Assembly (NCBI GenBank): GCA_034509925.1
Contig: CM067532.1
Coordinates: forward strand, 1,581,142 to 1,645,141
Length of the DNA: 64,000 nt
Source: Hirudinaria manillensis
Taxonomy: Eukaryota > Annelida > Clitellata > Hirudinida > Hirudinidae
Reading direction: 5' to 3'
The notes beneath the pieces were generated by a model. It was not told the origin of the DNA. It searched no databases and saw only the letters and a list, made by a program, of their open reading frames with translations. Positions 2,740 to 62,477 of this stretch are shown here, in pieces (the first letter of the stretch is position 1; the number at the start of each line of letters is the position of its first letter). Made by a program: the position numbers and the translations under genes.

Positions 2740-2770
<31 letters not shown>

Positions 2771-5700: not shown

Positions 5701-5989
5701 TAGTATCGTTGTAATTAGTATTATATCGTTGACATCGATTATGGCTGCCATTGAAGAGAGAAGCAAAAAAGATTCCATGTTGCCATGTTAGATGATTCAG
5801 AATAAAGTTATCAAAATAAAATCCAAAATAAAAAATGATAATTCATGACAATGCATGATCTGGTATTTTGAAGGTTTTTTTTCCTCTCATTCTCATACTT
5901 TCATGCATTCGATTGAAAAAGCACATTGTCCAAAAAATTATAAATTGTTTAAAAACAAACTGAAAATAATAACAGTGGCAATAATAATG

Positions 5990-6028
<39 letters not shown>

Positions 6029-9000: not shown

Positions 9001-9476
9001 TGCTTATTGGACAACAAGGCTGATCCAAACCTTGTAAACCAGGTGAGCCACGTCTTGTGTTGACAGTTGATGACAATAATGATGATGATACTGATATTGA
9101 TAGTGCTGATGAAGGTATTGATAGATGATTTAATTAGCTGAAACTAATAAATAATATAAATAAAAAATTAATGTTTAATACTTGTTATTACCTGTAATCT
9201 CTTGTATTACCATTATCATCACCTCCATCCACAACAATAGGTAATAGTTAATGGCCTACATAATTTAAAAATTGATCCCCTATTATCCACCATTAAATTT
9301 GTTGCAGACCAATCACACGCCATTCCATCTCGCACACGCGCACGGATTCAGGAACGTCGTCAAGCTGCTCGAGCCAGTGACTCGCGTCGAGAAAGTGCCG
9401 ACGGCAGATGTCGCGAGACTCGTTCCCAAGCAGATCTTCGGGGAGGAAGTCGTTGCCGACTCGGAAGATGAAATCG
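228..9476 (+). CDS. ANK: Ankyrin membrane-binding domain, ANK repeats 3-24 (15 exons)
   Basis: Twenty-two ANK repeats with the GxTPLHxAA consensus are visible. Most sit in phase-0 exons of 99 or 102 bp (one repeat) or 198-297 bp (two or three repeats). Alignment from memory with vertebrate ankyrins makes the first exon ([14 protein letters not shown]) repeat 3 and the last ([13 protein letters not shown]) repeat 24. The exon at 2802-3044 carries repeats 5 and 6 separated by a Ser/His-rich insert. Repeat 20, in exon 8348-8563, has about six extra residues before repeat 21. Introns hold AT-rich microsatellites and no second gene. Repeats 1-2 and the start codon lie left of the window. Confidence 0.93.
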
Positions 9477-12400
9477 GTTGGCATGGATTTCGGCGAATGT
9501 TTACGACGACGACAATGGTCAACGACAGGACTGAGTTTCATTGGCTGGCAAGACGATGCGTTCTTGTGGCTTTGTTTTTATTTGCAAGTTTTTTGTTAAT
9601 TTTGTGACTGTATGGCTTGTTTAACTCAGATGGGTTTAGTATTGATTATTATTCTATTCATGGTTAATTAATTATTGTTTTAAATTTATCAGAGAGTGAG
9701 AAAGTCAAGACCAGCGATTTTGCGAGCCTCCCAGAAGATGCGCAGAACTTTTCCTATGTTGCAGGACAAGAGGTGAGACACACAAATATGAAATTCATTT
9801 TTTAAACATAATCTTCACTTTTTTATTCATTTAAATTCTTCATGAGCCATTTTGAAATGTAATTAAGTTCGTTCGATTGCTAATTATTGAGCCATCTGTC
9901 ATTAATCCAACGACTGAGTTAACCGAACCCACGACAGGCTGGCAGGGACAGTGTCTTTGGAGGAAGGACAGGCTTTGGGGACAGGAGCATGAGTAGAGAG
10001 TTGAGATACCTCAACGATGAAGCAGAGTTCTCTGTTGCCTCTCTCCTCATGTCTCAGGCAAGATGATGTTGCTGTTGTCATTGTTGTTGATGTTGTGTTG
10101 TTGACTGTTGTTGTCTAACAGTCATTAATATTTAAACAATAATATCTACTAATATCTATGTTAATTAATTACTTAATTAATTTCCTTGTCAATATTCAAT
10201 ATGCCATTACAAATTACAATTTTATTTTGTATTCTTATTTTTTTTTTATGAGATACATGGATGCAAGTATTACAAAATTATCAAGAATATTAGATCTCCA
10301 TTACCATTTTCACCTTTCACTATCACAAAATAATGTTATCATTGAATAATATTTAATAATAATAACAAATAATACATAATAATAACATCTAATATTGATA
10401 ATAAATAATGATAGTAATAATAATAATAATAAATATGTTTACAACCATTAACAGAAGGAGAGCGAAGAAGGTAGAACCATGGAGAGGAGCCAGGACTCTG
10501 GCAGCCTTGGATTCCGCTACCAACACCTCCACCCCATGAGATACCTCGATTCCAGAACCTCCTCCATCAACACCAGCCACAGTGCCCTGCTCTCCGAAGC
10601 AAGTGGTAGCAACTACAATCTGGATCTTGCTGACAGTCCCATCCAATCAGGGTACGTTTATAAGTCATTCTGTCCATCCAATAGTAATGGTACAAATAAT
10701 AATAATAATAATAATATCATTACAATATTAGTTATGTATTTTATATAATAACCAGATAGAATATGTAATCAATATCGTATCATATCATAGTATAAGATAA
10801 TATAATAATGATAATGGGTCCTTGATTCCAGCTTCCTGGTTAGTTTCGTGGTGGATGCCAGAGGCAAAGCAATGTGCGGCATGAGGCACACCGGGGTCAG
10901 GATAATCGTCTCGCCTGGCAAGACCTCTGGACCGATCAGGGTGACCTGCAAACTCGTCAACCCTTCCAAGATGTCAAGCCCGCCGCCCCTAGTGGAGGGC
11001 GAAGGACTCGCTTCGAGGGTCCTCAAGATGGGTCCTGCTGGAGCAACGTTCGAGGGGTAGAGAAACCTTTTCTTTCTGCATTCGGTCGTTCGGTTTGGAA
11101 AATCTTGAAAGTATTTCTGTCTTGATACTTTTTTTTTCTTTAACTTCTATCTTGGGTCCCATATCAAATTTAATTTCATGTTGTTGTCTGACATGGTAAT
11201 GAAGCATCTACGTGCAAAAAAGCCCGTACGGTTTTAACTTATAATATCTGCATCAGAGCTCATTCGGATGTTCAACTTAATTTCATTTTAAGAACTTATA
11301 TTTGTTTCCATCCTCATTTGTTTGAGTTGTTGTCAACAACAGTAATTGAGATGGCAGTGTTTCCATTCAGGCCGGTGGTGATCGAGGTCCCGCACTTTGC
11401 CTCGCTGCAAGATCGGCAGAGGGAGGTGATCATCCTGAGGAGCGAAGACGGGGAGGTGTGGAAGGAACACATCAACAAGTTTCCTCTCTCGGAAGTCCAA
11501 AACATCATCAAGAACAGTTTCGGAGAAGGTCGGTCCACTTTTACAGTCAGCAAACGATTACTGTGTAACACAGATGAGAGCAAGGCAACAAACGTAACAA
11601 TAGTAATAGTATTGATCACGACTACACTAGCAATAATAATTATAGGTTCGCTTGGCATATAATCAAACATTTAATGATCTCGGGTGAAGCTTTGACGTAT
11701 AAAAATATTCTGAGTAGAAATATTCTGTGCTTGTTGTTGTTTGAATGAGAATCAGTCTTTCCCACGTGCACTGCATTCATCTATCAACATTCACTATTTT
11801 TTTATTATCTTTTTTTGTGTTTTGGTCTCGAAAGATTCTCTTAAGTTCTAGTATGCAGCCTTTTGGCAATATTTATGCTCTAAATCTATGATTCTTACTC
11901 AAAACTATATATATATATGTTTAATTATTGTCTTCTTAATCCATTGGAATTACAAATTTTACTGGTATTGGTACTGGCACTAAAGAAGGCTATTATGCAG
12001 TATTGTATCTCTTGTTCTGAAATCAGTGATTAAATTTATGACAGTATTTATTTTATTATTATTATTATTATTATTATTAATGCATACAATGACATACATT
12101 CATAAAACATTCATGCAGAGCTCAGCAGTGCAGAAGAGCTGTACCAGCAGAGAGTGGCCAGGATCATCACCTGCGACTTTCCAAAGTACTTTGCGCTCGT
12201 CTCCACACCTGCCCACGACAGGAGGGTGATCGGACCGAGCGGGGGCGAGATGACCTCCTCCATCGACCCCAGGGTGGTCGTCGGGATCCCCAAGAATGCT
12301 TTCAACAAGAAGATCCACATCAGGCTCATGGTTAACGTTCATAATTTGCATCAGCATTTTGATTTTAAAATCGAGCAGCAATGGTCGTTTGAGCTCAATT

Positions 12401-15400
12401 AATTTGTCCTTGGAAATTAGTCTTTCAAAATTCATGAACATTACTTTACCTATTTAAGTTAAGGTTAGGGTTAGGTTTACCTATTTAAAGTTGATAGAAT
12501 GCAAATTTGCACCGTTAAAGTCATCCATTATTAAAAGTAATTATTAATTAAGTAACGATTATCTTTTATTGCTAATGACCATCGATGATTCGTTTACTTT
12601 ATTGGAACTTTATTCAATCAAAAGATTTATTGAATAATAGGTAATGATAATTTATTATTAAAGATTTTTATTATCGTTATTGTTGTTGTTGTTTTTACTT
12701 TAACGACGATGGTTCTCATTCGCTGCCTGCAGGTTCAGAAAATCCCCGACAACCTAAAACAGAAAATGGAAGAGAACAGTGTTTACATGAGTCCCGTGGT
12801 GACCGTGGAGCCGAGAAGACGAAAATTCCATCAGCCTGTGACCATCAAGATTCCAGTTCCGCAGACTGGAAGCAACAAGTCCGGAAAGATGTGCCTTCTC
12901 TGCAGCTTGTCTGGTACCTTTCAAGCTTGTTTATTAATTTTTTTTTTCTTCACTTTGCTGTTATCACATTATTAATACTATTTTATTATTTGTTATGTAT
13001 TATTTTATTATTTATATTGTTTATTAATTTATTTATTTATTTAATTTGGTGCTAGAGAAACCATGGTTTTGCTAAATTAAAAATTATGAGAACAGTTAAG
13101 ATTCATTATTATGCCAAATGAATTAACCTTTTGTTTAAAAAAAATACATGAGGTGTTTCCAATCCTCTTGTTTCAGAGGGTCAAGATGTCTCTGTTTGGG
13201 AGGACATTACCAGCAAGAGCTCGCTGAAAGGGGAGAATGAATGCATCTATTTTCACACATCTGTGTCTGGGAGGTCCGATCATTTTTTTTTTCATTCAGT
13301 GTTTATCAGGAGCCATTTGTCGTTAGAAACATTGATTTTGGATATCGTTTGATCCTTTTAGTTAGCAATTTATAATGTTTAGAAAAATTATTATTGCAGG
13401 ACTTTTCTTAACAATGATGCAACTAGTGGTGTATTAGTAAAGAAATTAAATGAACTTCATATTCACTCTCTGAGGCTCTACTACAGACAAATTAATTTAT
13501 CGAGTCATTGACTTCTTGCAGATTTTGGCTCGTGAACACTACGGATCCGGCCATAACGCCGGCTTACTGCGGAAAGGCCTACGAAGACATGTGCAAAGTG
13601 CCTTACTTTTCCAAGTTTGTCCTCTTTGCCAGGAGGTCGGGATCCAACAAGGGAGTGCTAAGACTCGTCTGCTCTGCAGAGGGAAAAATCCAGAAGACGT
13701 TGGAGGGCAGGGAGCAGTACAAGGAGCTGGGTCAGACTGATGAAGCTGAGGTCAATTACAAATCAATAATTGCTAGATTATCTACCATCTGAATTACTGA
13801 ATTTACTGAAGATGCTATTTAATTTAATCATCAATATAAATTTTTTTAGATATTTATATGGCAGAAATTAACACGTCTATAATTATGAATAAGGTATCCA
13901 TATAACAGCCATTTGAAGCATGATTCGTCCCAGCTACATCCAATTTTCATGATGATCAGCATGATACAATATCTTTATGTTGTTCAACAGGTCATTTGTG
14001 GCAACAAGTATTCAGTGAGCTTCAAAGGAAATCTTGAACCATACCAGAAGCTAGAAAAGGGACCGCTGGACTTTACCTTTGAGCCCTTCAAAGAGAGCCG
14101 TCTCTCGACCGGAGTCTTCATAAAAAATCTCAACTCCCAGCCATCCTCTGAGATCGACATTTTCCAGGAGGCGACCAGCTTCAACGAGTCGAGGAAAGTT
14201 TCTTCTCTTGACTTCGTCCTACCCGAGCCCGAAGAGGATGCCATGCAAACAGAGGACCAGGCCGACGCCTCATCCCCCGATCGTGCCATTCGTTCGGGTT
14301 TGTCGGTTGCTTTGTAATTTTGTTTAACCCTCAAGTTACTCGTTGTTAATTGATGATTTGTGCTTCTCGTGTTCACGTTAAGTACATTTTTTATATTTGT
14401 CTGATCTTGTTTTTCATTTAATTTCATTAATAATTATTCAGTATAATCTTTTCCATTTATTACAGACAAACATCCTGGCATACATTATGACTTGACTCAG
14501 CTTGGATGCCTACTGGGTAGAGATTGGGTGAAGCTGGCAGATGCCTTTGGAATAAGTGATTCTGAGGTCAATAACATTAAGCAAAGAAATGAACTGCCCG
14601 AGCAGGAGGCCCAAGACTTCTTGAAGAAGCTTCTGACCGAGGTCAAAGATCCCGAAACGATCGCCAAAGGTCTCGATCACATCCGCAGACCAGATGCTAC
14701 GAAACTCTGGCTCAGAATGAATGAAGGTAAATGAGAAAATTTGTTTATTAAAAGAAATTATTGTTATAAATATTTGTAAGCATAGTAGTTTACGAATATT
14801 CTGCCTTTTAGCTTGTATGCTTATTTACGTTAAGCAGTAAAGAAAACTATATTTTAATTTATCAAATGATTTAAAACCATACTTTTTTTTTAAGAGCAAG
14901 AATTGAGAGCCTACATTAGGAAGTATTTGCCTGGAGAAACATATGATAATTACACATGGACAAAAGAAACAGAAAACATTTATAGCGGTTGTAAGGAACA
15001 GATGCACGGTGATGTCATCATTAAACACGTTGTCAAAGTACCATTAAATCTAGTAGATAAAGATTTGGAAACCATTACAAAGGAAGTGCTATTTAGGCAG
15101 CACAACAAGGATGGAACACAATCGTTGAAATGCATCAAGAAAACCACGTTTATGGCAGCAGGTTTGCCAGCTTACGAAGAAACCAGGCAAGAAATGTTGG
15201 CCAGAGAGTTCCAACTAGCTAATCTGCCCTCGCACTGCTTCGATGAAAGAGTTGGTGAAAGAAAGGAAATGAAGCCAAATGGGAACTTGATGCTAATAAG
15301 AATATTCAAGAAGTCCCCAGGAGCAAAGAAAGACGAAGCCGACATCATAGAAGAAGTCGTAGAGGCCTCTGCAGAGGCAAACAATGAAGACATCGAGGAC

Positions 15401-18400
15401 CTGGTTGTTGAAACTGTGGAAGAGAGATTGGATAAGATAAAATTGGATGATGGCATGAGAGGATCGAAGCTCATCAGGAAAACCTTCATCAAGCCTAAGG
15501 CAATTGAGGTTCAGAGGGATACTTCTGAAGCTGAAAAACGTGATGCAGACATCCAAGAAAAACCAGAAGATGAACTTTTATTGCTTAAGAAGTTCGTTTC
15601 AGACACATTTCCATACATTGACTTAAAACATTACCATGTCACACCTGGCCAGCCTGTCATCCTTAGAAAGAAAATCCCTAGTTCAGGCAAGCTGTCAGAA
15701 TCGTGGGAAGAGATCATCGAATTGACGCCAGGAGTGGAAACGATGAAGCGAGAAGATGTTGATATCGTTACCAAGATGAGGGAGTTCAAGGAAGATTTGC
15801 CAAATGCCAAAATGGTGACGAGATTTTTGAACAAAACAATAGTAAAGCCAAAAGAATTAACTGATCGCAAAGAAACCCCTCAGGAGATTTTAGCACAGGA
15901 ATTCCAGTCTCATAATTGGCTCTCATTTGAACTAGACAAAGAAAAGGACTCAACCAAAGAAACGAATAATAATGGATCATTGGTAATAACTCGACATTTT
16001 AAAAAATCTCCGTCAGCGGAGAAGCAAGAGGCCGACGTCTTGGAGGAAATCATAGAAATCACTCCAGAAACTGATGAAATTAATATGAATGACGTGGTGG
16101 TTGAATCATTTGAAACAAGACTCGATGATATCCAATTACATGATGGTAGACGAGGCTCAAAAGTTATTAAGAGAACTATCATAACGCCAAAGGTTATATT
16201 TGCAAAAAGAACTTCGCCCGAAAAGCAAGACAGGACGGGTGAAGAAAGACAAGCACATCTGCTTATCAGAAAATGTGTTTCAGATATCCTACCCATAGCT
16301 GACCTTGAGAAATTTGAAATTGAAGTCAAACCTGGCCAGCCAATCATACTTAGAAAGCTCACAAGCCCTGGAAAACAGTTACAGTCATTTGAAGAAGTAA
16401 TTGAATTGGCACCAGAAATAAGTAAGACGAATAAAGAGAACATTGAAATTAAAACAAAACTCAGAGAATTCCAGGAATATTTGCCAGATGGACGAGTAAT
16501 GTTGAGAGTGTTAAAGAAAATTATAATGGTACCAAAAGAAATGACTTCAGATAAACAAACACCTCAGGATGTTATATCAAAGGAGTTCCAGATAATTGAT
16601 TTTCCATCGTTTGAGCTCGACAAAAGAAAAGGTGAAACCAAAAGAACAAATAAAAAGGGAAGCTTAGAAATAATCCGGTATTTCAGGAAAACACCTAAGG
16701 CCGAGAAAGGCGAACCGGACGTCATAGAAGAAGTTGTAGAAATTGCCGAAGGAATCGACGAAGATAACGTGAATGACATTCTGATAAAATCATATGAAGC
16801 AAGACTTGATGATGTCAAATTATATGACGGGAGACGCGGCTCAACAGTGATCAAGAAAACAATAATTACACCTAGAGCTGTGGTCGAAAAACAATCCAGA
16901 CATGAAACTGAAAAACATGACATCAAAATTAAAGAAAACGCCGAAATTGTATCAAAATCATATATATCGAAAATCTTACCAAAATTGGATATTAATCAGT
17001 TCACTCAGACGACTGTCGTAAGACCCGGACAGCCGGTAGTGCTGAGAAAGAAGACATCGACGCCGGATAAACCATCCGAAACTCTCGAGGAAACGATAGA
17101 ACTCGCACCTGGAGTGGATCAAATGCAGCAAGACAACGTCGAAATAAGCACCAGCACGAGAGAATTCAAGGAATACCTGCCCGATGGACAGTGCGTGACG
17201 AGGGTTTTGAAGAAGACCATTGTCAAACCCAAGGGCCTGCCCGCAACCAAGCAGCCTCAGCAAGAGATACTGTTCAAAGAATTCCAACTTCCCGAGTTGC
17301 CATCCTTTAAGTTGGACGAGAGTAGAGGCGAATCCAAAAAATTCGCGGATGACGGAACGTTCGTGGTGACGAGGATCTTCAAGAAAGCTAAAGGAGCACA
17401 AAAGGGCGAAGCGGACGAGGTCGAAGAAGTCATTGAAACGGCACCGGGAATCGACGAAACCAACGTCGACGACGTGACCGTAGAAACGTTCGAAACGAGA
17501 TTGGATAACGTAAAACTTGACGACGGAAGGAGAGGAACGAGACTCGTTAGGAAGACGGTCGTTAGACCAAAGACTGTTGTCGTTCCTGAGCCGGCAGAGA
17601 AGTTTGTCGAGCCTCAGGTGGTCATTGAAGAGAAGAAACGCAAGGAGGTACCGGAACCGAAAGTTCAAGATAGACCTCAAGATCAGTTGGTAGCCGTAGA
17701 AAAGGTCATTGGCGAATCGCTGCCGAACGTCGATCTGACGCAGTTCACTCAGACGACCGTGGTCAGACCCGGAGAGCCGGTAGTGCTGAGAAAGAAGACA
17801 TCGACGCCGGATAAACCATCCGAAACTCTCGAGGAAACGATAGAACTCGCACCTGGAGTGGATCAAATGCAGCAAGACAACGTCGAAATAAGCACCAGCA
17901 CGAGAGAATTCAAGGAATACCTGCCCGATGGACAGTGCGTGACGAGGGTTTTGAAGAAGACCATTGTCAAACCCAAGGGCCTGCCCGCAACCAAGCAGCC
18001 TCAGCAAGAGATACTGTTCAAAGAATTCCAACTTCCCGAGTTGCCATCCTTTAAGTTGGACGAGAGTAGAGGCGAATCCAAAAAAGTGTTGGATGACGGA
18101 ACGTTCGTGGTGACGAGGATCTTCAAGAAAGCTAAAGGAGCACAAAAGGGCGAAGCGGACGAGGTCGAAGAAGTCATTGAAACGGCACCGGGAATCGACG
18201 AAACCAACGTCGACGACGTGACCGTAGAAACGTTCGAAACGAGATTGGATAACGTAAAACTTGACGACGGAAGGAGAGGATCGAGACTCGTTAGGAAGAC
18301 CGTCGTTAGACCAAAGACTGTTGTCGTTCCTGAGCCGGCAGAGAAGTTTGTCGAGCCTCAGGTGGTCATCGAAGAGAAGAAACGCAAGGAGGTACCGGAA

Positions 18401-21400
18401 CCGAAAGTTCAAGATAGACCTCAAGATCAGTTGGTAGCCGTAGAAAAGGTCATTGGCGAATCGCTGCCGAACGTCGATCTGACGCAGTTCACTCAGACGA
18501 CCGTGGTCAGACCCGGACAGCCGGTAGTGCTGAGAAAGAAGACATCGACGCCGGATAAACCATCCGAAACTCTCGAGGAAACGATAGAACTCGCACCTGG
18601 AGTGGATCAAATGCAGCAAGACAACGTCGAAATAAGCACCAGCACGAGAGAATTCAAGGAATACCTGCCCGATGGACAGTGCGTGACGAGGGTTTTGAAG
18701 AAGACCATTGTCAAACCCAAGGGCCTGCCCGCAACCAAGCAGCCTCAGCAAGAGATACTGTTCAAAGAATTCCAACTTCCCGAGTTGCCATCCTTTAAGT
18801 TGGACGAGAGTAGAGGCGAATCCAAAAAATTCGCGGATGACGGAACGTTCGTGGTGACGAGGATCTTCAAGAAAGCTAAAGGAGCACAAAAGGGCGAAGC
18901 GGACGAGGTCGAAGAAGTCATTGAAACGGCACCGGGAATCGACGAAACCAACGTCGACGACGTGACCGTAGAAACGTTCGAAACGAGATTGGATAACGTA
19001 AAACTTGACGACGGAAGGAGAGGATCGAGACTCGTTAGGAAGACCGTCGTTAGACCAAAGACTGTTGTCGTTCCTGAGCCGGCAGAGAAGTTTGTCGAGC
19101 CTCAGGTGGTCATCGAAGAGAAGAAACGCAAGGAGGTACCGGAAGCGAAAGTTCAAGATAGACCTCAAGATCAGTTGGTAGCCGTAGAAAAGGTCATTGG
19201 CGAATCGCTGCCGAACGTCGATCTGACGCAGTTCACTCAGACGACCGTGGTCAGACCCGGACAGCCGGTAGTGCTGAGAAAGAAGACATCGACGCCGGAT
19301 AAACCATCCGAAACTCTCGAGGAAACGATAGAACTCGCACCTGGAGTGGATCAAATGCAGCAAGACAACGTCGAAATAAGCACCAGCACGAGAGAATTCA
19401 AGGAATACCTGCCCGATGGACAGTGCGTGACGAGGGTTTTGAAGAAGACCATTGTCAAACCCAAGGGCCTGCCCGCAACCAAGCAGCCTCAGCAAGAGAT
19501 ACTGTTCAAAGAATTCCAACTTCCCGAGTTGCCATCCTTTAAGTTGGACGAGAGTAGAGGCGAATCCAAAAAAGTGTTGGATGACGGAACGTTCGTGGTG
19601 ACGAGGATCTTCAAGAAAGCTAAAGGAGCACAAAAGGGCGAAGCGGACGAGGTCGAAGAAGTCATTGAAACGGCACCGGGAATCGACGAAACCAACGTCG
19701 ACGACGTGACCGTAGAAACGTTCGAAACGAGATTGGATAACGTAAAACTTGACGACGGAAGGAGAGGATCGAGACTCGTTAGGAAGACGGTCGTTAGACC
19801 AAAGACTGTCGTCGTTCCTGAGCCGGCAGAGAAGTTTGTCGAGCCTCAGGTGGTCATCGAAGAGAAGAAACGCAAGGAGGTACCGGAACCGAAAGTTCAA
19901 GATAGACCTCAAGATCAGTTGGTAGCCGTAGAAAAGGTCATTGGCGAATCGCTGCCGAACGTCGATCTGACGCAGTTCACTCAGACGACCGTGGTCAGAC
20001 CCGGAGAGCCGGTAGTGCTGAGAAAGAAGACATCGACGCCGGATAAACCATCCGAAACTCTCGAGGAAACGATAGAACTCGCACCTGGAGTGGATCAAAT
20101 GCAGCAAGACAACGTCGAAATAAGCACCAGCACGAGAGAATTCAAGGAATACCTGCCCGATGGACAGTGCGTGACGAGGGTTTTGAAGAAGACCATTGTC
20201 AAACCCAAGGGCCTGCCCGCAACCAAGCAGCCTCAGCAAGAGATACTGTTCAAAGAATTCCAACTTCCCGAGTTGCCATCCTTTAAGTTGGACGAGAGTA
20301 GAGGCGAATCCAAAAAAATTCGCGGATGACGGAACGTTCGTGGTGACGAGGATCTTCAAGAAAGCTAAAGGAGCACAAAAGGGCGAAGCGGACGAGGTCG
20401 AAGAAGTCATTGAAACGGCACCGGGAATCGACGAAACCAACGTCGACGACGTGACCGTAGAAACGTTCGAAACGAGATTGGATAACGTAAAACTTGACGA
20501 CGGAAGGAGAGGATCGAGACTCGTTAGGAAGACCGTCGTTAGACCAAAGACTGTTGTCGTTCCTGAGCCGGCAGAGAAGTTTGTCGAGCCTCAGGTGGTC
20601 ATCGAAGAGAAGAAACGCAAGGAGGTACCGGAAGCGAAAGTTCAAGATAGACCTCAAGATCAGTTGGTAGCCGTAGAAAAGGTCATTGGCGACTCGCTGC
20701 CGAACGTCGATCTGACGCAGTTCACTCAGACGACCGTGGTCAGACCCGGAGAGCCGGTAGTGCTGAGAAAGAAGACATCGACGCCGGATAAACCATCCGA
20801 AACTCTCGAGGAAACGATAGAACTCGCACCTGGAGTGGATCAAATGCAGCAAGACAACGTCGAAATAAGCACCAGCACGAGAGAATTCAAGGAATACCTG
20901 CCCGATGGACAGTGCGTGACGAGGGTTTTGAAGAAGACCATTGTCAAACCCAAGGGCCTGCCCGCAACCAAGCAGCCTCAGCAAGAGATACTGTTCAAAG
21001 AATTCCAACTTCCCGAGTTGCCATCCTTTAAGTTGGACGAGAGTAGAGGCGAATCCAAAAAATTCGCGGATGACGGAACGTTCGTGGTGACGAGGATCTT
21101 CAAGAAAGCTAAAGGAGCACAAAAGGGCGAAGCGGACGAGGTCGAAGAAGTCATTGAAACGGCACCGGGAATCGACGAAACCAACGTCGACGACGTGACC
21201 GTAGAAACGTTCGAAACGAGATTGGATAACGTAAAACTTGACGACGGAAGGAGAGGATCGAGACTCGTTAGGAAGACCGTCGTTAGACCAAAGACTGTTG
21301 TCGTTCCTGAGCCGGCAGAGAAGTTTGTCGAGCCTCAGGTGGTCATCGAAGAGAAGAAACGCAAGGAGGTACCGGAAGCGAAAGTTCAAGATAGACCTCA

Positions 21401-24400
21401 AGATCAGTTGGTAGCCGTAGAAAAGGTCATTGGCGAATCGCTGCCGAACGTCGATCTGACGCAGTTCACTCAGACGACCGTGGTCAGACCCGGACAGCCG
21501 GTAGTGCTGAGAAAGAAGACATCGACGCCGGATAAACCATCCGAAACTCTCGAGGAAACGATAGAACTCGCACCTGGAGTGGATCAAATGCAGCAAGACA
21601 ACGTCGAAATAAGCACCAGCACGAGAGAATTCAAGGAATACCTGCCCGATGGACAGTGCGTGACGAGGGTTTTGAAGAAGACCATTGTCAAACCCAAGGG
21701 CCTGCCCGCAACCAAGCAGCCTCAGCAAGAGATACTGTTCAAAGAATTCCAACTTCCCGAGTTGCCATCCTTTAAGTTGGACGAGAGTAGAGGCGAATCC
21801 AAAAAAGTGTTGGATGACGGAACGTTCGTGGTGACGAGGATCTTCAAGAAAGCTAAAGGAGCACAAAAGGGCGAAGCGGACGAGGTCGAAGAAGTCATTG
21901 AAACGGCACCGGGAATCGACGAAACCAACGTCGACGACGTGACCGTAGAAACGTTCGAAACGAGATTGGATAACGTAAAACTTGACGACGGAAGGAGAGG
22001 ATCGAGACTCGTTAGGAAGACCGTCGTTAGACCAAAGACTGTCGTCGTTCCTGAGCCGTCAGAGAAGTTTGTCGAGCCTCAGGTGGTCATCGAAGAGAAG
22101 AAACGCAAGGAGGTACCGGAACCGAAAGTTCAAGATAGACCTCAAGATCAGTTGGTAGCCGTAGAAAAGGTCATTGGCGACTCGCTGCCGAACGTCGATC
22201 TGACGCAGTTCACTCAGACGACCGTGGTCAGACCCGGAGAGCCGGTAGTGCTGAGAAAGAAGACATCGACGCCGGATAAACCATCCGAAACTCTCGAGGA
22301 AACGATAGAACTCGCACCTGGAGTGGATCAAATGCAGCAAGACAACGTCGAAATAAGCACCAGCACGAGAGAATTCAAGGAATACCTGCCCGATGGACAG
22401 TGCGTGACGAGGGTTTTGAAGAAGACCATTGTCAAACCCAAGGGCCTGCCCGCAACCAAGCAGCCTCAGCAAGAGATACTGTTCAAAGAATTCCAACTTC
22501 CCGAGTTGCCATCCTTTAAGTTGGACGAGAGTAGAGGCGAATCCAAAAAAGTGTTGGATGACGGAACGTTCGTGGTGACGAGGATCTTCAAGAAAGCTAA
22601 AGGAGCACAAAAGGGCGAAGCGGACGAGGTCGAAGAAGTCATTGAAACAGCACCGGGAATCGACGAAACCAACTTCGACGACGTGACCGTAGAAACGTTC
22701 GAAACGAGATTGGATAACGTAAAACTTGACGACGGAAGGAGAGGATCGAGACTCGTTAGGAAGACGGTCGTTAGACCAAAGACTGTCGTCGTTCCTGAGC
22801 CGGCAGAGAAGTTTGTCGAGCCTCAGGTGGTCATCGAAGAGAAGAAACGCAAGGAGGTACCGGAACCGAAAGTTCAAGATAGACCTCAAGATCAGTTGGT
22901 AGCCGTAGAAAAGGTCATTGGCGACTCGCTGCCGAACGTCGATCTGACGCAGTTCACTCAGACGACCGTGGTCAGACCCGGAGAGCCGGTAGTGCTGAGA
23001 AAGAAGACATCGACGCCGGATAAACCATCCGAAACTCTCGAGGAAACGATAGAACTCGCACCTGGAGTGGATCAAATGCAGCAAGACAACGTCGAAATAA
23101 GCACCAGCACGAGAGAATTCAAGGAATACCTGCCCGATGGACAGTGCGTGACGAGGGTTTTGAAGAAGACCATTGTCAAACCCAAGGGCCTGCCCGCAAC
23201 CAAGCAGCCTCAGCAAGAGATACTGTTCAAAGAATTCCAACTTCCCGAGTTGCCATCCTTTAAGTTGGACGAGAGTAGAGGCGAATCCAAAAAAGTGTTG
23301 GATGACGGAACGTTCGTGGTGACGAGGATCTTCAAGAAAGCTAAAGGAGCACAAAAGGGCGAAGCGGACGAGGTCGAAGAAGTCATTGAAACAGCACCGG
23401 GAATCGACGAAACCAACTTCGACGACGTGACCGTAGAAACGTTCGAAACGAGATTGGATAACGTAAAACTTGACGACGGAAGGAGAGGATCGAGACTCGT
23501 TAGGAAGACGGTCGTTAGACCAAAGACTGTCGTCGTTCCTGAGCCGGCAGAGAAGTTTGTCGAGCCTCAGGTGGTCATCGAAGAGAAGAAACGCAAGGAG
23601 GTACCGGAACCGAAAGTTCAAGATAGACCTCAAGATCAGTTGGTAGCCGTAGAAAAGGTCATTGGCGACTCGCTGCCGAACGTCGATCTGACGCAGTTCA
23701 CTCAGACGACCGTGGTCAGACCCGGAGAGCCGGTAGTGCTGAGAAAGAAGACATCGACGCCGGATAAACCATCCGAAACTCTCGAGGAAACGATAGAACT
23801 CGCACCTGGAGTGGATCAAATGCAGCAAGACAACGTCGAAATAAGCACCAGCACGAGAGAATTCAAGGAATACCTGCCCGATGGACAGTGCGTGACGAGG
23901 GTTTTGAAGAAGACCATTGTCAAACCCAAGGGCCTGCCCGCAACCAAGCAGCCTCAGCAAGAGATACTGTTCAAAGAATTCCAACTTCCCGAGTTGCCAT
24001 CCTTTAAGTTGGACGAGAGTAGAGGCGAATCCAAAAAAGTGTTGGATGACGGAACGTTCGTGGTGACGAGGATCTTCAAGAAAGCTAAAGGAGCACAAAA
24101 GGGCGAAGCGGACGAGGTCGAAGAAGTCATTGAAACAGCACCGGGAATCGACGAAACCAACTTCGACGACGTGACCGTAGAAACGTTCGAAACGAGATTG
24201 GATAACGTAAAACTTGACGACGGAAGGAGAGGATCGAGACTCGTTAGGAAGACGGTCGTTAGACCAAAGACTGTCGTCGTTCCTGAGCCGGCAGAGAAGT
24301 TTGTCGAGCCTCAGGTGGTCATCGAAGAGAAGAAACGCAAGGAGGTACCGGAACCGAAAGTTCAAGATAGACCTCAAGATCAGTTGGTAGCCGTAGAAAA

Positions 24401-27400
24401 GGTCATTGGCGACTCGCTGCCGAACGTCGATCTGACGCAGTTCACTCAGACGACCGTGGTCAGACCCGGAGAGCCGGTAGTGCTGAGAAAGAAGACATCG
24501 ACGCCGGATAAACCATCCGAAACTCTCGAGGAAACGATAGAACTCGCACCTGGAGTGGATCAAATGCAGCAAGACAACGTCGAAATAAGCACCAGCACGA
24601 GAGAATTCAAGGAATACCTGCCCGATGGACAGTGCGTGACGAGGGTTTTGAAGAAGACCATTGTCAAACCCAAGGGCCTGCCCGCAACCAAGCAGCCTCA
24701 GCAAGAGATACTGTTCAAAGAATTCCAACTTCCCGAGTTGCCATCCTTTAAGTTGGACGAGAGTAGAGGCGAATCCAAAAAATTCGCGGATGACGGAACG
24801 TTCGTGGTGACGAGGATCTTCAAGAAAGCTAAAGGAGCACAAAAGGGCGAAGCGGACGAGGTCGAAGAAGTCATTGAAACGGCACCGGGAATCGACGAAA
24901 CCAACGTCGACGACGTGACCGTAGAAACGTTCGAAACGAGATTGGATAACGTAAAACTTGACGACGGAAGGAGAGGATCGAGACTCGTTAGGAAGACGGT
25001 CGTTAGACCAAAGACTGTCGTCGTTCCTGAGCCGGCAGAGAAGTTTGTCGAGCCTCAGGTGGTCATCGAAGAGAAGAAACGCAAGGAGGTACCGGAACCG
25101 AAAGTTCAAGATAGACCTCAAGATCAGTTGGTAGCCGTAGAAAAGGTCATTGGCGACTCGCTGCCGAACGTCGATCTGACGCAGTTCACTCAGACGACCG
25201 TGGTCAGACCCGGACAGCCGGTAGTGCTGAGAAAGAAGACATCGACGCCGGATAAACCATCCGAAACTCTCGAGGAAACGATAGAACTCGCACCTGGAGT
25301 GGATCAAATGCAGCAAGACAACGTCGAAATAAGCACCAGCACGAGAGAATTCAAGGAATACCTGCCCGATGGACAGTGCGTGACGAGGGTTTTGAAGAAG
25401 ACCATTGTCAAACCCAAGGGCCTGCCCGCAACCAAGCAGCCTCAGCAAGAGATACTGTTCAAAGAATTCCAACTTCCCGAGTTGCCATCCTTTAAGTTGG
25501 ACGAGAGTAGAGGCGAATCCAAAAAATTCGCGGATGACGGAACGTTCGTGGTGACGAGGATCTTCAAGAAAGCTAAAGGAGCACAAAAGGGCGAAGCGGA
25601 CGAGGTCGAAGAAGTCATTGAAACGGCACCGGGAATCGACGAAACCAACGTCGACGACGTGACCGTAGAAACGTTCGAAACGAGATTGGATAACGTAAAA
25701 CTTGACGACGGAAGGAGAGGATCGAGACTCGTTAGGAAGACGGTCGTTAGACCAAAGACTGTTGTCGTTCCTGAGCCGGCAGAGAAGTTTGTCGAGCCTC
25801 AGGTGGTCATTGAAGAGAAGAAACGCAAGGAGGTACCTGAACCGAAAGTTCAAGATAGACCTCGAGATCAGTTGGTGGCCGTAGAAAAGGTCATTGCGGA
25901 TTCGCGACCATATGTAAAACCAGATCCAGAAAAGTTTGTTGAGCCTCAGTTTGTGGTTATTGAAGGGATTAAAGATATGCTTTTTGATGAAAAGAAATTT
26001 GATTCCAAAGAGATACTGACCAAAGAGTTTGTCTCTACTCCTGAGAAAGATGCGGAATCTCTGGAGGTGGTAGGACCACGAGATCAAGAACTCGCTGTAG
26101 AAAAGGTCATCCCAGAGCCATCAATGAAATTTGTTGATCAGGTGCCATTCAAAGAGACTGAGAAGATGCTTCTAGAAGATAAGAAATTTGATTCCAAGGT
26201 GATAATTGATACAAGACAAAAGGGTCCAGGAGAAACAGGTTTTCTTCCTCAGACCCAAAGGTCACGTGAAGTTATTGTTATGACCCATGAGCATTTGAAC
26301 ATTGATGGAAACATTCTGATGGCTCCTCGTGCAAAAGATTTCCCGAATATCGAATCCTTTCTGGCCTCACTCTCTTCTGATCCTTCTGGTTTCCCATTTC
26401 CTGCAGAATCTTCAAGGACTGACACTCCATATGTTCATCTTGTTCCAAGTTGGTTTGAAGTTTTTTTCTGACTTGTTGCTTAATTGGTTGTTTTTGTTTA
26501 TTGTGTTTATATGTGATTTGGTATATTTGCAAATATGCTGTTAAATCAATAGTTGTTTAATATACTTTATTTCCAGGCTTTTTGCTATGACTTTTTCTTT
26601 TTATATATTATTTATATGTGTTTTTATATATTATTTTTGTTATTTTTAGGCCATTTGAGATATGCCTATGAATTTCCCTTGCCTGAGACACCACAAATCG
26701 AAAATTTTAAAGAAAGTGTTGGTGGTTCAAAGGCTTTTCGAGCAACAATTGATGTTAGAAATTATGATGAAAATTTTAAGTTTGAAGGTGAAACAATCAC
26801 AATTGAGTCTTCCAAAGTAATTTCTGATCACTCATCCCAAGATGACGCAGACTTTTATGATTCTCGAGTCGATATTTGTCATGTCCATTATAGTGAAACC
26901 ATCGACTCTTCTGAAGGCAGCAGTGCTCATACAGAGTTTTCCGAGCTCGACCATCAATATTCAACTGCTGTTACAATCTCTGAGGCAGGAATAAGTACCA
27001 TAGAATACCAAGAATCTCACAAGGATGACTTGATCAAAGATGCTCCCAAACCCCAGTATTATGAAGAGTTTAAGTTAGATCCATCTTCAGCTGACAGTGC
27101 TCAACAGACCACTTCAGTGGTGGTTACTGAGACCAAAATTGGTACTGAGGAGCACCATGCACCTTCAGATGATTTATCAAGCAGTATCATTTCTAAACAG
27201 AAAGAGTCTGATGAACGACAGTCTTCCACCCCTTCAACTGTAATTAGCCAGGATTATTCAATACATGGAGAATATGAGGAATCACAGCAGTTTGAGACTG
27301 CTGGATTAGGTACTAAAGAGTATCAAGTACCTTTTGAGAATGTTTCCACAATAATTGAACAGGAAGTCAAACACAAGGAGCTGCCAGAACCGAAAGTTCA

Positions 27401-29918
27401 GGACAGACCTCAAGATCAGTTGGTTGCCATTGAAAAGGTCATCGCCGATTCTCTGCCATACATCGATCTCACTCAGTTTACCCAGACTGTGGTCAGACCA
27501 GGACAACCTGTGGTGTTGAGAAAGAAGACATCGACGACTAAGAAACCAGACGAAACTCTTGAGGAAACGATTGAACTCGCACCTGGAGTGGATCAGATGC
27601 AGCAAGACAACGTCGAGATAAGCACCAGTACCAGAGAATTCAAGGAATACCTGCCCGATGGACAGTGCATGACGAGGGTTTTGAAGAAGACCATTGTCAA
27701 ACCCAAGGGCCTGCCCGCACCCAAGCAACCACAGCAAGAGGTACTGTTCAAAGAATTCCAACTTCCCGAGTTGCCATCCTTTAAGTTGGACGAGAGTAGA
27801 GGCGAATCCAAAAAAGTCGCAGATGACGGAACGCTCGTGGTGACAAGGATCTTCAAGAAAGCTAAAGGGGCACAAAAGGGCGAAGCGGACGAGGTCGAAG
27901 AAGTCATTGAAACAGCACCGGGAATCGACGAAACCAACGTCGACGACGTGATCGTAGAAACGTACGAAACGAGATTAGATAACGTAAAACTTGGCGACGG
28001 AAGGATAGGATCGAGACTCATTAGGAAGACCGTCGTTAGACCAAAGACTGTTGTCGTTCCTGAGCCGACAGAGACGTTTGTCGAGCCTCAGGTGGTCATT
28101 GAAGAGAAGAAAGTCGAATGCAAAGAAGAAACAGTGCCAAAAGTACAGGACAGACCTCAAGATCAGTTGGTAGCTGTTGAAAAAGTCATTGGTGACCTAC
28201 TGCCGAATGTCGACGTGACTCAATTCACTCAGACGACCGTGGTCAGACCTGGACATCCGGTAGTGCTGAGAAAGAAGACATGGACGACTGAGAAACCAGA
28301 CGAAACTCTTGAGGAAACGATTGAACTCGCACCTGGAGTGGATCAGATGCAGAGAGACAAAGTTGAGATCAGCACCATCACAAGAGAATTCAAGGAATAC
28401 TTGCCCGATGGACAGTGCTTGATGAGGGTTTTGAAGAAGACCATTGTCAAACCCAAGGGCCTGCCCGCACCAAAGCAGCCTCAACAAGAGATACTGTTCA
28501 AAGAATTCCAACTTTCCGAGTTGCCGTCCTTTAAGTTGGACGAGAGAAGAGGCGAATCCAAAAAAGTCTCGGATGACGGAACGTTCGTGGTGACGAGGAT
28601 CTTCAGGAAAGCTAAAGGGGCTCAAAAGGACGAGGCGGACGAGGTCGAAGAAGTCATTGAAACTGCACCGGGAATCGACGAAACCAACGTCGACGACGTG
28701 ACCGTAGAAACGTTTGAAACGAGATTGGATAACGTAAAACTTGACGACGGAAGGAGAGGGTCTAGAATCATTAGGAAGACAATCGTTAGACCAAAGACAG
28801 TTGTCATTACTGAGTCGGAAGAGAAGTTTGTTGGGCCTCATTTGGTCATTGAAGAGAAGGGAGCTGAACAGAAATATTTTGACAGTTCTGACAGCCAGGA
28901 ACTACATGTTTCTTCTGCTATTACTAGCGAAATTGGTAAACCAAAAGAATCCTCCTTTATCAGTGATCAGAAATTCACCTCTTCTAGTATCACAGAAAGT
29001 GGGTTGTTTTCCACAGATCATCGCTTACTTCAAGGAGATTTCTCGACACTGACAGTTTCAGAAGCTAGGGATTCTGCTGAACAAAAATCATACATCTCTT
29101 CAACAGTTGTTAGTCAAGGTGATTCTGCAATAATCAGCCAGGTTCATGAAGAGTATGAGGAATCAGAGGAGTTTGAGACAGGAGAAGAATGGAGTTTGAT
29201 TGATGATGCAAGAATTGCAGGAAGAAAGTTGAAAAACAGACTGGCAATGGAGCGAACTGTTGGCCCAGATGGAGAAATCATAGAGAGACTCATCACCGAG
29301 GAGTACCTTTCGGACAAATCCGATTCATCCAGTCGAAGGTCCAGCATAGATTCTCTGAGTCTCACCGGCAAAGAAATCGAAAGGCTCGATCCGCTCGGCT
29401 TGTCCAGCGACATAGAAAACGTCGACTCTGAATTCAAACCTCTGACCGTTTTCACTCATACTTTGGAACAAGATCCAGTCTACGAGACCGAAACTACAGA
29501 ATACGAGGACACTCTGCCCGACGGAACCATTGTCAGAAGGAGAGTCATAAAGACCAACAAGAAGCAGACCATCATAAAACGTGTCATACTCGAAGGACTG
29601 GGTGAAGAGGAACCCTTTTCCGATCTCAACTCGGCAGCCACGGTTCCTCATGGCTCCTCAAACAAGCAGCAGATCACCCGCTATTCGGACCACTCTTCAG
29701 CCGATCCGGAAATCAGCACGGATGTGCAAGCATTCGAAGAACAGTTGGAGGATGGAACGATTGTTCGCAAGAGGGTTACGAATACGAAACAGCAACAGCT
29801 GACTACAGAGAGACTGGTCGTTTCCGGGACGGGACTTTTCGAATGCTCAAAGGAGGGTGAAGAAGATGTACTGGAATCTCTCAAACATCTTAGCCTCCCA
29901 GCAAAGGAGCAGGATTGA
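228..29918 (+). CDS. ANK: Giant ankyrin (ANK repeats, ZU5-ZU5-UPA, death domain, repeat-expanded tail); 5' end outside window
   Basis: Ankyrins tether membrane proteins, bound by the ANK solenoid, to spectrin, bound by ZU5. The window enters at canonical repeat 3. I place 28 coding exons here: 228-326, 1866-1964, 2802-3044, 3554-3655, 4052-4150, 4633-4929, 5102-5203, 6144-6341, 6859-7056, 7366-7563, 7933-8034, 8348-8563, 8706-8804, 8944-9042, 9308-9476, 9693-9772, 9938-10057, 10455-10651, 10832-11056, 11371-11528, 12119-12330, 12733-12913, 13177-13273, 13522-13750, 13991-14297, 14466-14726, 14895-26448, 26650-29918. Phases join at every junction, and the sum is about 6,402 residues once one extra A at 20312-20318 is discounted. 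Which ankyrin paralogue this is (Ank2/unc-44-like or the only copy) cannot be told from the window. Shorter isoforms lacking the giant exon are likely by analogy with other animals, but no alternative exon was identified. Confidence 0.93.
384..598. repeat. (AAT/ATT)n microsatellite cluster in ankyrin intron
   Basis: AAT and ATT triplets alternate over about 215 bp, making the block partly self-complementary. Similar short clusters lie at 905-1054 and 2703-2770. Confidence 0.85.
1430..1473. repeat. (ATATC)n pentanucleotide repeat
   Basis: ATATC/ATCAT units, about nine copies with two TATCT variants, in an ankyrin intron. Confidence 0.75.
5343..5421. repeat. (GAT)n microsatellite in ankyrin intron
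   Basis: Imperfect GAT/GGT/GAC triplets over about 80 bp between the repeat 12 and repeat 13 exons. Confidence 0.75.
5581..5731 (+). repeat. 21-bp intronic minisatellite
   Basis: About seven copies of GTTGTAATTAGTATTTATATC with small changes, in the intron between the repeat 12 exon (ends 5203) and the repeat 13-14 exon (starts 6144). The open frame through it is a by-product of the 21-bp period. Confidence 0.88.
5985..6031. repeat. (AAT)n microsatellite
   Basis: About 14 AAT units upstream of the exon at 6144. Confidence 0.85.
6342..6347 (+). other. Candidate GC-AG intron donor after ANK repeat 14
   Basis: The ANK 13-14 exon ends ACCAAG at 6341 and is followed by GCAAGG. This matches the GC-donor consensus AG|GCAAG, in phase 0 with the next exon at 6859. 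A weaker GTCATT at 6348 would add two codons and is also in phase, so GC use is likely but not proven. Confidence 0.6.
9693..10651 (+). CDS. ANK: Ankyrin linker between ANK repeats and ZU5 (3 exons)
   Basis: Exons 9693-9772, 9938-10057 and 10455-10651 encode a Ser/Arg/Tyr-rich, low-homology linker. This matches the unstructured stretch between repeat 24 and ZU5 in other ankyrins. Phases are 1-0-0-2, and they join repeat 24 to the ZU5 exon without a stop. The donor after 10057 reads GCAAGA. The nearest downstream GT would put TGA in frame, so a GC-AG intron is needed. Boundaries rest on phase more than on similarity, because linkers diverge quickly. Confidence 0.75.
10058..10063 (+). other. 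GC-AG intron donor in ankyrin linker
   Basis: Exon 9938-10057 ends CTCAG and is followed by GCAAGA. Reading on to the next GT passes TGA in frame, so only the GC donor leaves an open junction to 10455. Confidence 0.72.
10832..14297 (+). CDS. ANK: Ankyrin spectrin-binding module: ZU5N, ZU5C and UPA (7 exons)
   Basis: Exons 10832-11056, 11371-11528, 12119-12330, 12733-12913, 13177-13273, 13522-13750 and 13991-14297 read continuously through the ZU5-ZU5-UPA supramodule. ZU5N opens [12 protein letters not shown], keeping the Asp-Ala-Arg of the spectrin-binding surface, then VEGEGLASR and MGPAGA. ZU5C keeps [11 protein letters not shown] and IPVP. UPA keeps VWEDIT, a WL(V)N segment, VPYFSKFV and the GNLEP segment. 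The last exon continues into an acidic linker toward the death domain. Spectrin binding is known for the family; here it is inferred from the conserved surface motif. Confidence 0.93.
14466..14726 (+). CDS. ANK: Ankyrin death domain exon
   Basis: This 261-bp exon (phase 2 in, phase 1 out) encodes an 86-residue death-domain fold. It contains [17 protein letters not shown], then SEVNNIK, a long helix ending LLTEVKD and a final helix with LWLRMNE. The order agrees with ankyrin death domains, in which DW(xx)LA is the hallmark. The exon sits upstream of the giant exon, so the expanded tail is C-terminal to the death domain. Confidence 0.9.
14895..26448 (+). CDS. ANK: Giant ankyrin tail exon with tandem 248-aa units
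   Basis: This exon is about 11.55 kb. It begins with two bases completing a codon from the death-domain exon and ends one base into a codon, joining the terminal exon at 26650. It contains three diverged repeat units (about 15010-16937) and twelve nearly identical 744-bp units (16938-25893). A unique acidic segment with a short ~60-aa local duplication follows (25894-26448). The protein is rich in Glu, Lys, Val and Thr with alternating charged strands. I see no membrane segment or catalytic motif. Frame is open except for one extra A at 20312-20318, which gives TGA at 20327-20329; deleting one base restores 3,850 full codons. Cytoskeletal or spacer function is inferred from vertebrate, fly and worm giant ankyrins. 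Confidence 0.88.
15010..16937 (+). repeat. Three diverged upstream copies of the ankyrin tail unit
   Basis: Approximate units are 15010-15561, 15562-16246 and 16247-16937. Each repeats the order KPG/RPGQPV(I/V)LRK, then (E)LAPG or (E)LTPG, REFKE-LP, KPK and FETRLDD. DNA identity to the central array is low and codons are more A/T-rich. The first unit lacks a recognisable first half. Confidence 0.8.
16938..25893 (+). repeat. Twelve-copy, 744-bp coding tandem array in ankyrin
   Basis: The segment starting CTCAGCAAGAGATACTG recurs at 17257 (offset by its first bases), 18001, 18745, 19489, 20233-20234, 20978, 21722, 22466, 23210, 23954, 24698 and 25442. Spacing is exactly 744 bp except where one extra A occurs. 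Units differ by only a few bases. Protein variants are GQPV/GEPV, KFADDG/KVLDDG, NVDD/NFDD, EPK/EAK, IGES/IGDS, one AEKF to SEKF and one GTR for GSR. Near-identity starts sharply at about 16997 and ends at about 25893. Confidence 0.96.
20312..20318 (+). other. Extra A in A7 run: frameshift in array unit 5
   Basis: Eleven sister units read six A at this point; unit 5 reads seven. The original frame then meets TGA at 20327-20329, while the frame one base over continues open for about 6.1 kb. The likeliest causes are a consensus error in a hard-to-assemble array or a recent mutation. Confidence 0.9.
26650..29918 (+). CDS. ANK: Ankyrin terminal coding exon with two further repeat units and conserved tail
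   Basis: Acceptor tatttttag ends at 26649, and a 201-bp intron separates this exon from the giant exon in matching phase. The order is: a Ser/Glu-rich spacer (26650-27403), two diverged 248-aa-type units (27404-28857), a second Ser-rich spacer related to the first, and a C-terminal tail. The tail has two copies of a (P/E)DGTIVR(R/K)RV strand motif (about 29510-29600 and 29735-29830). The stop is TGA at 29916-29918. The tail motif resembles the ordinary invertebrate ankyrin C-terminus, which ties the giant exon to the same gene. Confidence 0.88.
27404..28857 (+). repeat. Two diverged downstream copies of the ankyrin tail unit
   Basis: Units at about 27404-28151 and 28152-28857 follow the same 248-aa order as the central array but carry many substitutions, such as TTKKPDE or TTEKPDE in place of TPDKPSE. 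They lie in the separate terminal exon, so the repeat family spans an intron. Confidence 0.88.
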
Positions 29919-61830: not shown

Positions 61831-61909
61831 TTCATCGATGCGGGCAGATCCTCGTAGAATGTGATCAGAGCACTAAAACATATTCCACAAAAAGTGGAGG
61901 ACGGCTGGT

Positions 61910-62477
61910 GGATGGATGGATGGATGGATGGATGGATGGATGGATGGATGGATGGATGGATGGATGGATGGATGGATGGATGGATGGATGGATGGATGGA
62001 TGGATGGATGGATGGATGGATGGATGGATGGATGGATGGATGGATGGATGGATGGATGGATGGATGGATGGATGGATGGATGGATGGATGGATGGATGGA
62101 TGGATGGATGGATGGATGGATGGATGGATGGATGGATGGATGGATGGATGGATGGATGGATGGATGGATGGATGGATGGATGGATGGATGGATGGATGGA
62201 TGGATGGATGGATGGATGGATGGATGGATGGATGGATGGATGGATGGATGGATGGATGGATGGATGGATGGATGGATGGATGGATGGATGGATGGATGGA
62301 TGGATGGATGGATGGATGGATGGATGGATGGATGGATGGATGGATGGATGGATGGATGGATGGATGGATGGATGGATGGATGGATGGATGGATGGATGGA
62401 TGGATGGATGGATGGATGGATGGATGGATGGATGGATGGATGGATGGATGGATGGATGGATGGATGGATGGATGGAT
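61910..62477. repeat. Perfect (TGGA)n microsatellite, about 142 units
   Basis: GGAT is repeated without interruption for 568 bp. All six frames stay open, which yields long artificial Met-Asp-Gly-Trp or Ile-His-Pro-Ser frames that are not genes. Confidence 0.98.

Follow-up and report, generated by a model that had tools for sequence, protein, structure and literature searches.

A giant ankyrin exon in the leech Hirudinaria manillensis with a homogenised array of 248-residue units, each predicted to hold paired beta modules

Introduction

What does an ankyrin gene do with a dozen almost indistinguishable copies of a 248-residue unit in a single exon, and where might such a unit have come from? 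The question is raised by a window of 64,000 nucleotides from the leech Hirudinaria manillensis (assembly GCA_034509925.1, contig CM067532.1, positions 1,581,142 to 1,645,141 of the forward strand), in which a sequence-only reading had recognised a giant ankyrin exon built from such units. Giant ankyrins organise axons. The window holds most of one ankyrin gene on the + strand, the gene start lying upstream of it, and the exon is, in the reading that we prefer and to which as a whole chain we give a probability of roughly 0.55, the tail exon of a neuronal giant ankyrin isoform, in which a string of beta modules would serve as a multivalent spacer.

Giant ankyrins have been reported in all bilaterian groups examined, with the giant exon following the death domain in protostomes and echinoderms (PMC5135030). 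Their giant exons are described as evolving too fast for homology to be traced and as strongly biased in composition, and a subset of them carries arrays of 36-228 bp units in 5 to more than 160 copies (PMC5135030). Fly Ank2-XL has 93 highly conserved 76-residue repeats, postulated to form a spacer of which a fraction suffices for axon diameter (PMC5135030); the protein is of 1200 kDa, and its repeat region is essential for microtubule interaction (PMC6703079, citing Stephan 2015). In the worm, UNC-44 anchors microtubules together with UNC-33 and UNC-119 (PMC7159925).

The giant exon and its array

That the gene is an ankyrin is near certain. Twenty-three local hidden Markov model (HMM) matches, a few of them weak, are read as ankyrin repeats and follow one another in order from -191 (upstream of the window's first letter) to about 9370, with further weak or short matches at -864 and 4980; canonical ankyrins have about 24 repeats, and the gene agrees with this. 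Pfam Ank/Ank_2 was found on both ankyrin-repeat exons tested. The ZU5-ZU5-UPA cassette comes next, with PF00791 and PF17809 over their cut-offs. Pfam ZU5 was also found on two of the three later cassette stretches (Table 1), in one case slightly below its cut-off, and all three stretches match paralogs: the 98-residue stretch at 12106-12399 has no Pfam match on its own, yet matches six of the seven paralog loci compared. The death domain (PF00531) follows the UPA domain as in canonical ankyrins and scores 22.5 bits against a cut-off of 22.6; in tblastn, its stretch had no match at the other ankyrin loci compared. The tail encoded by the last exon resembles the tails of other ankyrin loci. The designation as a giant ankyrin exon is thus borne out by an ankyrin head in the proper order upstream and an ankyrin-like tail at the end.

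Behind the death domain lies a single multi-kb exon with one frame break. Its core holds twelve copies in register (17012-25940), as the sequence-only reading had it: any two of units 1-11 differ at 0-14 of 744 nucleotide positions, with no difference at all among units 8, 9, and 10; unit 12 deviates chiefly at its 3' end. The spacing had been described as a constant 744 bp, with all units divisible by three. Ten of the 11 spacings are indeed 744 bp; the remaining one is 745 bp, and divisibility fails there, where a run of seven A (A7) in unit 5 breaks the frame. The core units cover 8.9 of the 11.6 kb of the exon, so that conserved tandem repeats fill most of it. They are flanked by about 2.5 degenerate units upstream (39-46% amino acid identity to unit 3) and by units 13 and 14 in the last exon (27486-28235 and 28236-28985; 91 and 77% identity to unit 3). 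Counted in half-modules, the array comes to 33, or 16.5 units, and its 12 central units are the homogenised ones. The unit has 19 matches in the genome, every one of them inside the window gene, which speaks against a dispersed repeat, and that reading was rejected.

The + frame is open in all 14 aligned units (the alignment is without units 5, 9, and 10, the last two being equal to unit 8). A stop test on nine units found a minus frame open in all four core units tested and in none of five diverged ones, and antisense coding was rejected for the latter reason. Because unit 5 reads A7 where 13 other copies compared read A6, the giant exon appears as two open reading frames (ORFs), 14894-20329 and 20187-26471. 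With the surplus base removed, the exon measures 11,553 bp, or 3 x 3851, and is of phase 1 at both ends; the death-domain exon could then also join 26650 directly, in frame. The donor after 26448 (CAA/GTTGGT) is weak; were it unused, the exon, as its sequence reads, would end at its own in-frame stop, 26469-26471. An acceptor before 26577 was rejected, since it would add a hydrophobic T-rich stretch that reads like an intron. The sequence-only reading had put the window part of the gene at more than 6,400 residues; the two long exons alone amount to about 4,940 codons.

The unit as two half-modules

The 248-residue unit is itself composed of two diverged copies of one module: the local alignment of its halves scores 130, against 37 +- 6.8 (maximum 65) in 300 shuffles, with a best offset of 112 residues or 336 bp. 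A profile HMM of the half-module finds 33 domains above 60 bits in the window gene, among which the 13 unique halves used to build it are included by construction. In the first pass, the profile also matched one place in a paralogous ankyrin locus, C4, at E 2.1e-6, while the best shuffled sequence stood at 0.052 and the next best ORF outside the window gene at 0.34; iteration added five more C4 modules, six altogether, with final E values of 1e-8 to 6e-19. As judged from these sequence comparisons, it is firm that the module is common to the window gene and C4.

On iteration, the DG motif of ankyrin tails enters as well: that of locus C5a in round three (1.5e-6), and in round four the tail motifs of C5a, C2, and C5b (1e-4 to 5e-4), the best shuffled sequence standing at 1.1 in the final iterated model. 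By way of profile iteration, this is suggestive of a relation between the module and the DG tail motif of other ankyrins. The search space consisted of the fetched ankyrin regions and the window, and the values gauge relatedness, not specificity. In the same iterated search no link was found between the module and the 108-residue repeat of C2; only the C2 tail matched.

A search of protein databases with the unit, proposed in the sequence-only reading, returned nothing above threshold from Pfam or PDB. The single unit and the 14 aligned units gave only names below the cut-off in Pfam (best YscJ_FliF_C, E 0.0017); by sequence, the single unit had no match in PDB and the half-module profile just one (E 0.27).

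From the 14 units of the window as input, AlphaFold modelled the unit at a mean predicted local distance difference test score (pLDDT) of 70.4 and a predicted template modelling score of 0.60. The model has strands at residues 9-15, 23-31, 43-55, and 61-73, a helix at 83-91, and then strands at 117-125, 136-143, 155-168, and 174-186, with pLDDT below 50 over 189-240. A separate run on 14 half-module rows (mean pLDDT 76.2) placed four strands (9-17, 20-31, 43-55, and 61-73) at nearly the same positions as in the unit model, and a helix at 84-90. Each half-module is predicted to be a four-stranded beta structure, followed in the first half by a short helix; in the prediction, the two halves combine into a single folded block of some 188 residues, and a disordered linker of some 52 residues comes after it. 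On these models, the repeat is best viewed as a series of beta-structure blocks on flexible linkers.

A homogenised core between old edges

Almost no synonymous change separates the copies, as had been remarked before: the synonymous distance is 0-0.04 over 28 pairs of 8 core units tested. Since the core units are near-identical at silent and non-silent sites alike, their homogeneity reflects recent exchange, not selection, and the present uniformity is by itself no evidence of selection. At the edges, unit 13 differs from unit 3 by a synonymous distance (dS) of 0.27 and a non-synonymous distance (dN) of 0.048 (ratio 0.18), and unit 14 by a dS of 0.33 and a dN of 0.16 (ratio 0.47); in the upstream units, silent sites are mostly saturated. 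A four-gamete test on the 8 variable sites shared among units 1-11 found all four combinations in 12 of 28 site pairs. The picture that these comparisons suggest is one of repeated unequal exchange in the middle of the array, with old copies left at its edges and the protein conserved over the longer term. As to origin, we propose that the ankyrin's own tail module was duplicated into a dimer, which would then have been amplified by unequal crossing-over and conversion, with its protein sequence under selection.

Base composition also varies along the window. The G+C fraction is 0.50-0.51 over 18001-26000 and 0.30-0.46 in the other 2-kb bins, and at third positions it is 0.59 in unit 3 versus 0.33 in old unit u0, a pattern expected from GC-biased conversion.

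Comparison with known giant ankyrins

The closest known likeness is Drosophila Ank2-XL, which also has a giant exon after the death domain with a core of conserved tandem repeats (PMC5135030). As repeat arrays of the Ank2-XL type are already known, the leech array is not new in kind. The earlier statement that such an array is not a recognised one falls in this respect, the fly array occupying the same position, but stands with regard to size: the 744-bp unit lies outside, and exceeds, the surveyed range of 36-228 bp. Set against the fly repeat by description, the leech unit differs in having 248 residues, in being dimeric, in its 12 core copies, and in being predicted to fold. C. elegans UNC-44 AO13 is likewise a giant neuronal ankyrin with repeats in its C-terminal part, and by immobilising UNC-33 and UNC-119 it links microtubules to the cortex (PMC7159925); its description, however, gives six STEP-rich blocks separated by hydrophobic stretches, whereas the leech units are near-neutral beta modules. 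Vertebrate AnkG-480 and AnkB-440 share with the leech gene that they are giant neuronal ankyrins made from a very long exon, but this exon lies before the death domain, and the vertebrate AnkGs are without arrays of homologous repeats (PMC5135030).

Our search of the literature on leech and annelid giant ankyrins and on ankyrin gene numbers found no paper on leech giant ankyrins; the available portion of PMC6054404 mentions ankyrin only for TRPA channels. What sets the leech array apart is the size of the unit, its dimeric make-up, its predicted fold, and its possible origin from the tail.

Nine ankyrin loci and three kinds of giant exon

A search of the genome for the ZU5 family gave 19 matches. 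In local tblastn comparisons of eight loci, the window gene and seven others each match three or more of the ZU5-ZU5-UPA cassette stretches. Whole-genome searches with the window ZU5 and UPA stretches yielded nine loci matched by both, namely these eight and one on C3 (C3:1233997-1235045), the latter identified from the ZU5 and UPA query matches alone. Four weaker ZU5 places (one on C9, one on C12, and two on C6), which match neither query, were not counted as ankyrin, nor were three UPA-query matches lacking a ZU5 match (two on C8 and one on C2; E 2e-9 to 0.01). At C8:8331938-8332153, away from the nine loci, a window-UPA match of E 2e-9 lies inside an open frame of 2,039 codons. Published counts are a single ankyrin gene in echinoderms, cephalochordates, and tunicates, a lone unc-44 in C. 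elegans, and two genes in flies (PMC5135030).

Downstream of the ZU5 exon, 40 kb was read in C5a, C1, C6, and C2 and 10 kb in the other three loci (one partly masked); in C2 a further 10 kb was read at the end, so that its long open stretch was read at its two ends. In C2 and C4, Pfam confirms that a death domain precedes the long stretch (31.3 and 58.2 bits, respectively), while the match is below the cut-off in C5a, C1, and C5b.

C4 resembles the window gene in that a long ORF of 2,067 codons (L045:2374-9714) after the death domain contains several copies of the window module; it differs in that these copies are diverged, not homogenised. By its sequence, C4 is a third kind of giant ankyrin exon.

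C2 shares with the window gene a giant open stretch after the death domain, homogenised repeats, and an ankyrin-like tail, but its unit has 108 residues and is very acidic (in the parts read, a net charge of -0.26 per residue), and the stretch is about 70 kb long. Its frames of 4,431 and 19,056 codons form an open stretch of 70,412 bp from stop to stop (C2:12259249-12329660), the break between them being one A fewer in one copy versus the full run in 53 copies. The end of the stretch, which resembles an ankyrin tail, continues the reading frame of the repeats without interruption. At least 153 matches of the 108-residue unit were found, a lower bound from scoring 150 of 191 candidates, and those listed are all in C2. 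We know of no longer open exon in any animal; our literature search on record-length exons turned up nothing usable.

Of the remaining loci, C1 carries long ORFs of 714, 310, and 1,740 codons that are acidic and free of repeats, and giant acidic ORFs are absent from the 40 kb downstream in C6 and from the 10 kb downstream in C5b. In C5a, a pair of DG tail motifs lies within about 7 kb, and the 40 kb downstream shows no ankyrin-like giant ORF. Also downstream of the C5a ankyrin, at C5:5591562-5607216, is a tandem ORF array with RRM-like sequence (EVFVSNLSYDVTEEELEELF), and the 40 kb read there shows periods near 393 and 1761.

A wider reading takes the nine loci as a leech ankyrin family whose tails grew separately by tandem amplification and would act as graded molecular rulers between membrane skeleton and microtubules. 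The tail of the window gene would be a chain of folded beta modules descended from the tail motif of the ankyrin itself; C4 would carry diverged versions of this module, and C2 an acidic bristle about 23,000 residues long, with ruler length set by the copy number of each gene. We offer it tentatively, as a possibility that falls short of a preferred account.

The proposed spacer and its rivals

In the preferred reading, that of a neuronal isoform with a spacer of beta modules, inclusion of the giant exon in neurons would make the isoform, as with fly Ank2-XL and worm UNC-44. By the same analogy, the ankyrin head would be fixed to membrane proteins and spectrin, and the string of beta blocks on linkers would reach inwards, presenting many identical binding sites for microtubules or their partners, with copy number setting reach and avidity. 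Skipping of the giant exon would give an in-frame, shorter isoform with two units. The terms "neuronal" and "length-tunable spacer" of the sequence-only reading are ones that we, too, infer from these analogies. That reading makes no mention of the frame break, of the two modules within each unit, of the relatives of the unit, or of the paralogs.

Several observations weigh against this reading. Foldseek found no match at E <= 0.001 among solved structures for either the unit or the half-module, and the AlphaFold models, of moderate confidence, stem from 14 rows of one gene. Giant ankyrin exons are reported to contain about 25% Ser+Glu and more than 55% of the six residues Ser, Glu, Thr, Asp, Lys, and Pro (PMC5135030), and the window exon falls short of both values (15.8 and 49.3%); the parts of C2 that were read do exceed them (38.1 and 61.2%). 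The link to the tail is weak in the first pass of the profile, where the domain E values of the tail motifs, from 1.1 to 8.5, do not improve on that of the best shuffled sequence (0.052), and their later E values come from models that had incorporated earlier hits. Finally, because unit 5 breaks the frame and the donor after 26448 is weak, the full-length product is putative.

The main rival, unlikely in our judgement yet the strongest of those considered, is that the exon is a coding satellite, expanded and homogenised by unequal crossing-over, in which any copy number is tolerated and length has no tuned function. Recent exchange, seen in the near-identity of core units at silent and non-silent sites, the mosaic of variable sites, and the identity of units 8-10 are what it would lead one to expect; the older copies, however, retain related sequence, the frame is open in 14 aligned units, and the dN/dS ratios of units 13 and 14 are 0.18 and 0.47.

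There is only a small chance that the exon is decayed, with a genuine break in unit 5 that cuts the giant isoform short after about 1,810 residues. The break is present in the sequence, but we read it as probably a consensus error because it consists of a single A in a homopolymer inside near-identical repeats, because about 2,000 codons remain open beyond it, and because C2 has a like break between two very long frames (4,431 and 19,056 codons), a parallel that points to consensus errors in repeats. Short reads were, moreover, used to polish the matching published assembly (PMC10671345).

An assembly artefact in copy number or homogeneity, through collapse, expansion, or over-polishing, is just as improbable. 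Near-identical copies such as these are open to it, for short-read polishing across them can homogenise them. Against this, the matching H. manillensis assembly, although polished with Illumina reads, was built from HiFi reads with a mean length of 18.73 kb, longer than the 11.6-kb exon (PMC10671345), and the divergence between outer units and core is of the kind seen in natural arrays.

An assignment of the open array to another gene, or to a non-ankyrin transcript, is very improbable, given the in-phase junction with the death-domain exon, the uninterrupted frame that joins repeats and ankyrin-like tail in C2, and the presence of the module at a second ankyrin locus.

Gene layout and neighbouring features

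Table 1. Features of the ankyrin gene in window coordinates.
Feature	Position	Strand	Evidence and remarks
Ankyrin-repeat domain exons	231..9370	+	Local repeat HMM, Pfam Ank/Ank_2
ZU5 exon, first part of spectrin-binding cassette	10815..11057	+	Pfam PF00791, E 6e-18
Remaining ZU5-ZU5 cassette exons	11192..12972	+	Stop-free stretches 11192-11659, 12106-12399, 12634-12972; Pfam ZU5, paralog matches
UPA domain exons and linker	13152..14314	+	PF17809, E 4e-5 (13889-14314); paralog matches
Death-domain exon (start provisional)	14447..14726	+	PF00531, E 1.3e-4; donor AAG/GTAAAT after 14726
Giant exon, 11,554 bp	14895..26448	+	ORFs, junction phases; phase 1 at both ends without the surplus A
Old degenerate units u-2, u-1, u0	14948..17011	+	Amino acid identity of 39-46% with unit 3; silent sites mostly saturated
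Core array, 12 units x 744 bp (unit 5, 745 bp)	17012..25940	+	Each unit consists of two diverged half-modules
A7 run, frame break in unit 5	20312..20318	+	A6 in 13 other copies compared
Proposed intron, giant exon to last exon	26449..26649	+	Weak donor, plausible acceptor before 26650
Last exon	26650..29918	+	Units 13 and 14; tail with two DG motifs at about 29450-29800; stop 29916-29918

Downstream of the ankyrin gene, at 36332-39382, is a long ORF with protein kinase and VPS15-like helical matches and a sub-threshold WD40 match, of the PIK3R4/VPS15 type. A perfect TGGA microsatellite of 142 copies at 61909-62477 is the source of long spurious ORFs on both strands. Elsewhere in the genome, C9:3026446-3027786 carries a copy of the COX1 region within a chromosome-sized contig, with a score equal to that of the mitochondrial one; it is either a nuclear insertion of recent date or a join made during assembly. 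The mitochondrial COX1 reads with genetic code 5; ARAGORN found no mitochondrial tRNA in the piece searched, and mitochondrial gene order was used for COX1-COX2 alone. The genome also has a match to the hirudin family, which is not known outside leeches, in agreement with a leech origin.

Significance

The leech repeat is domain-sized and predicted to fold; its module occurs at a second ankyrin locus as well, and may go back to the tail of the ankyrin itself. The tail origin, if true, would provide a concrete source for a giant exon, and with it a unit amenable to production and experiment. Within a leech genome of 148 Mb there are nine ankyrin loci, at least three of which are followed by giant open stretches, one of them of 70 kb. 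Leech neurons may thus be a place to ask whether the length of an ankyrin tail sets axon calibre or the spacing of microtubules.

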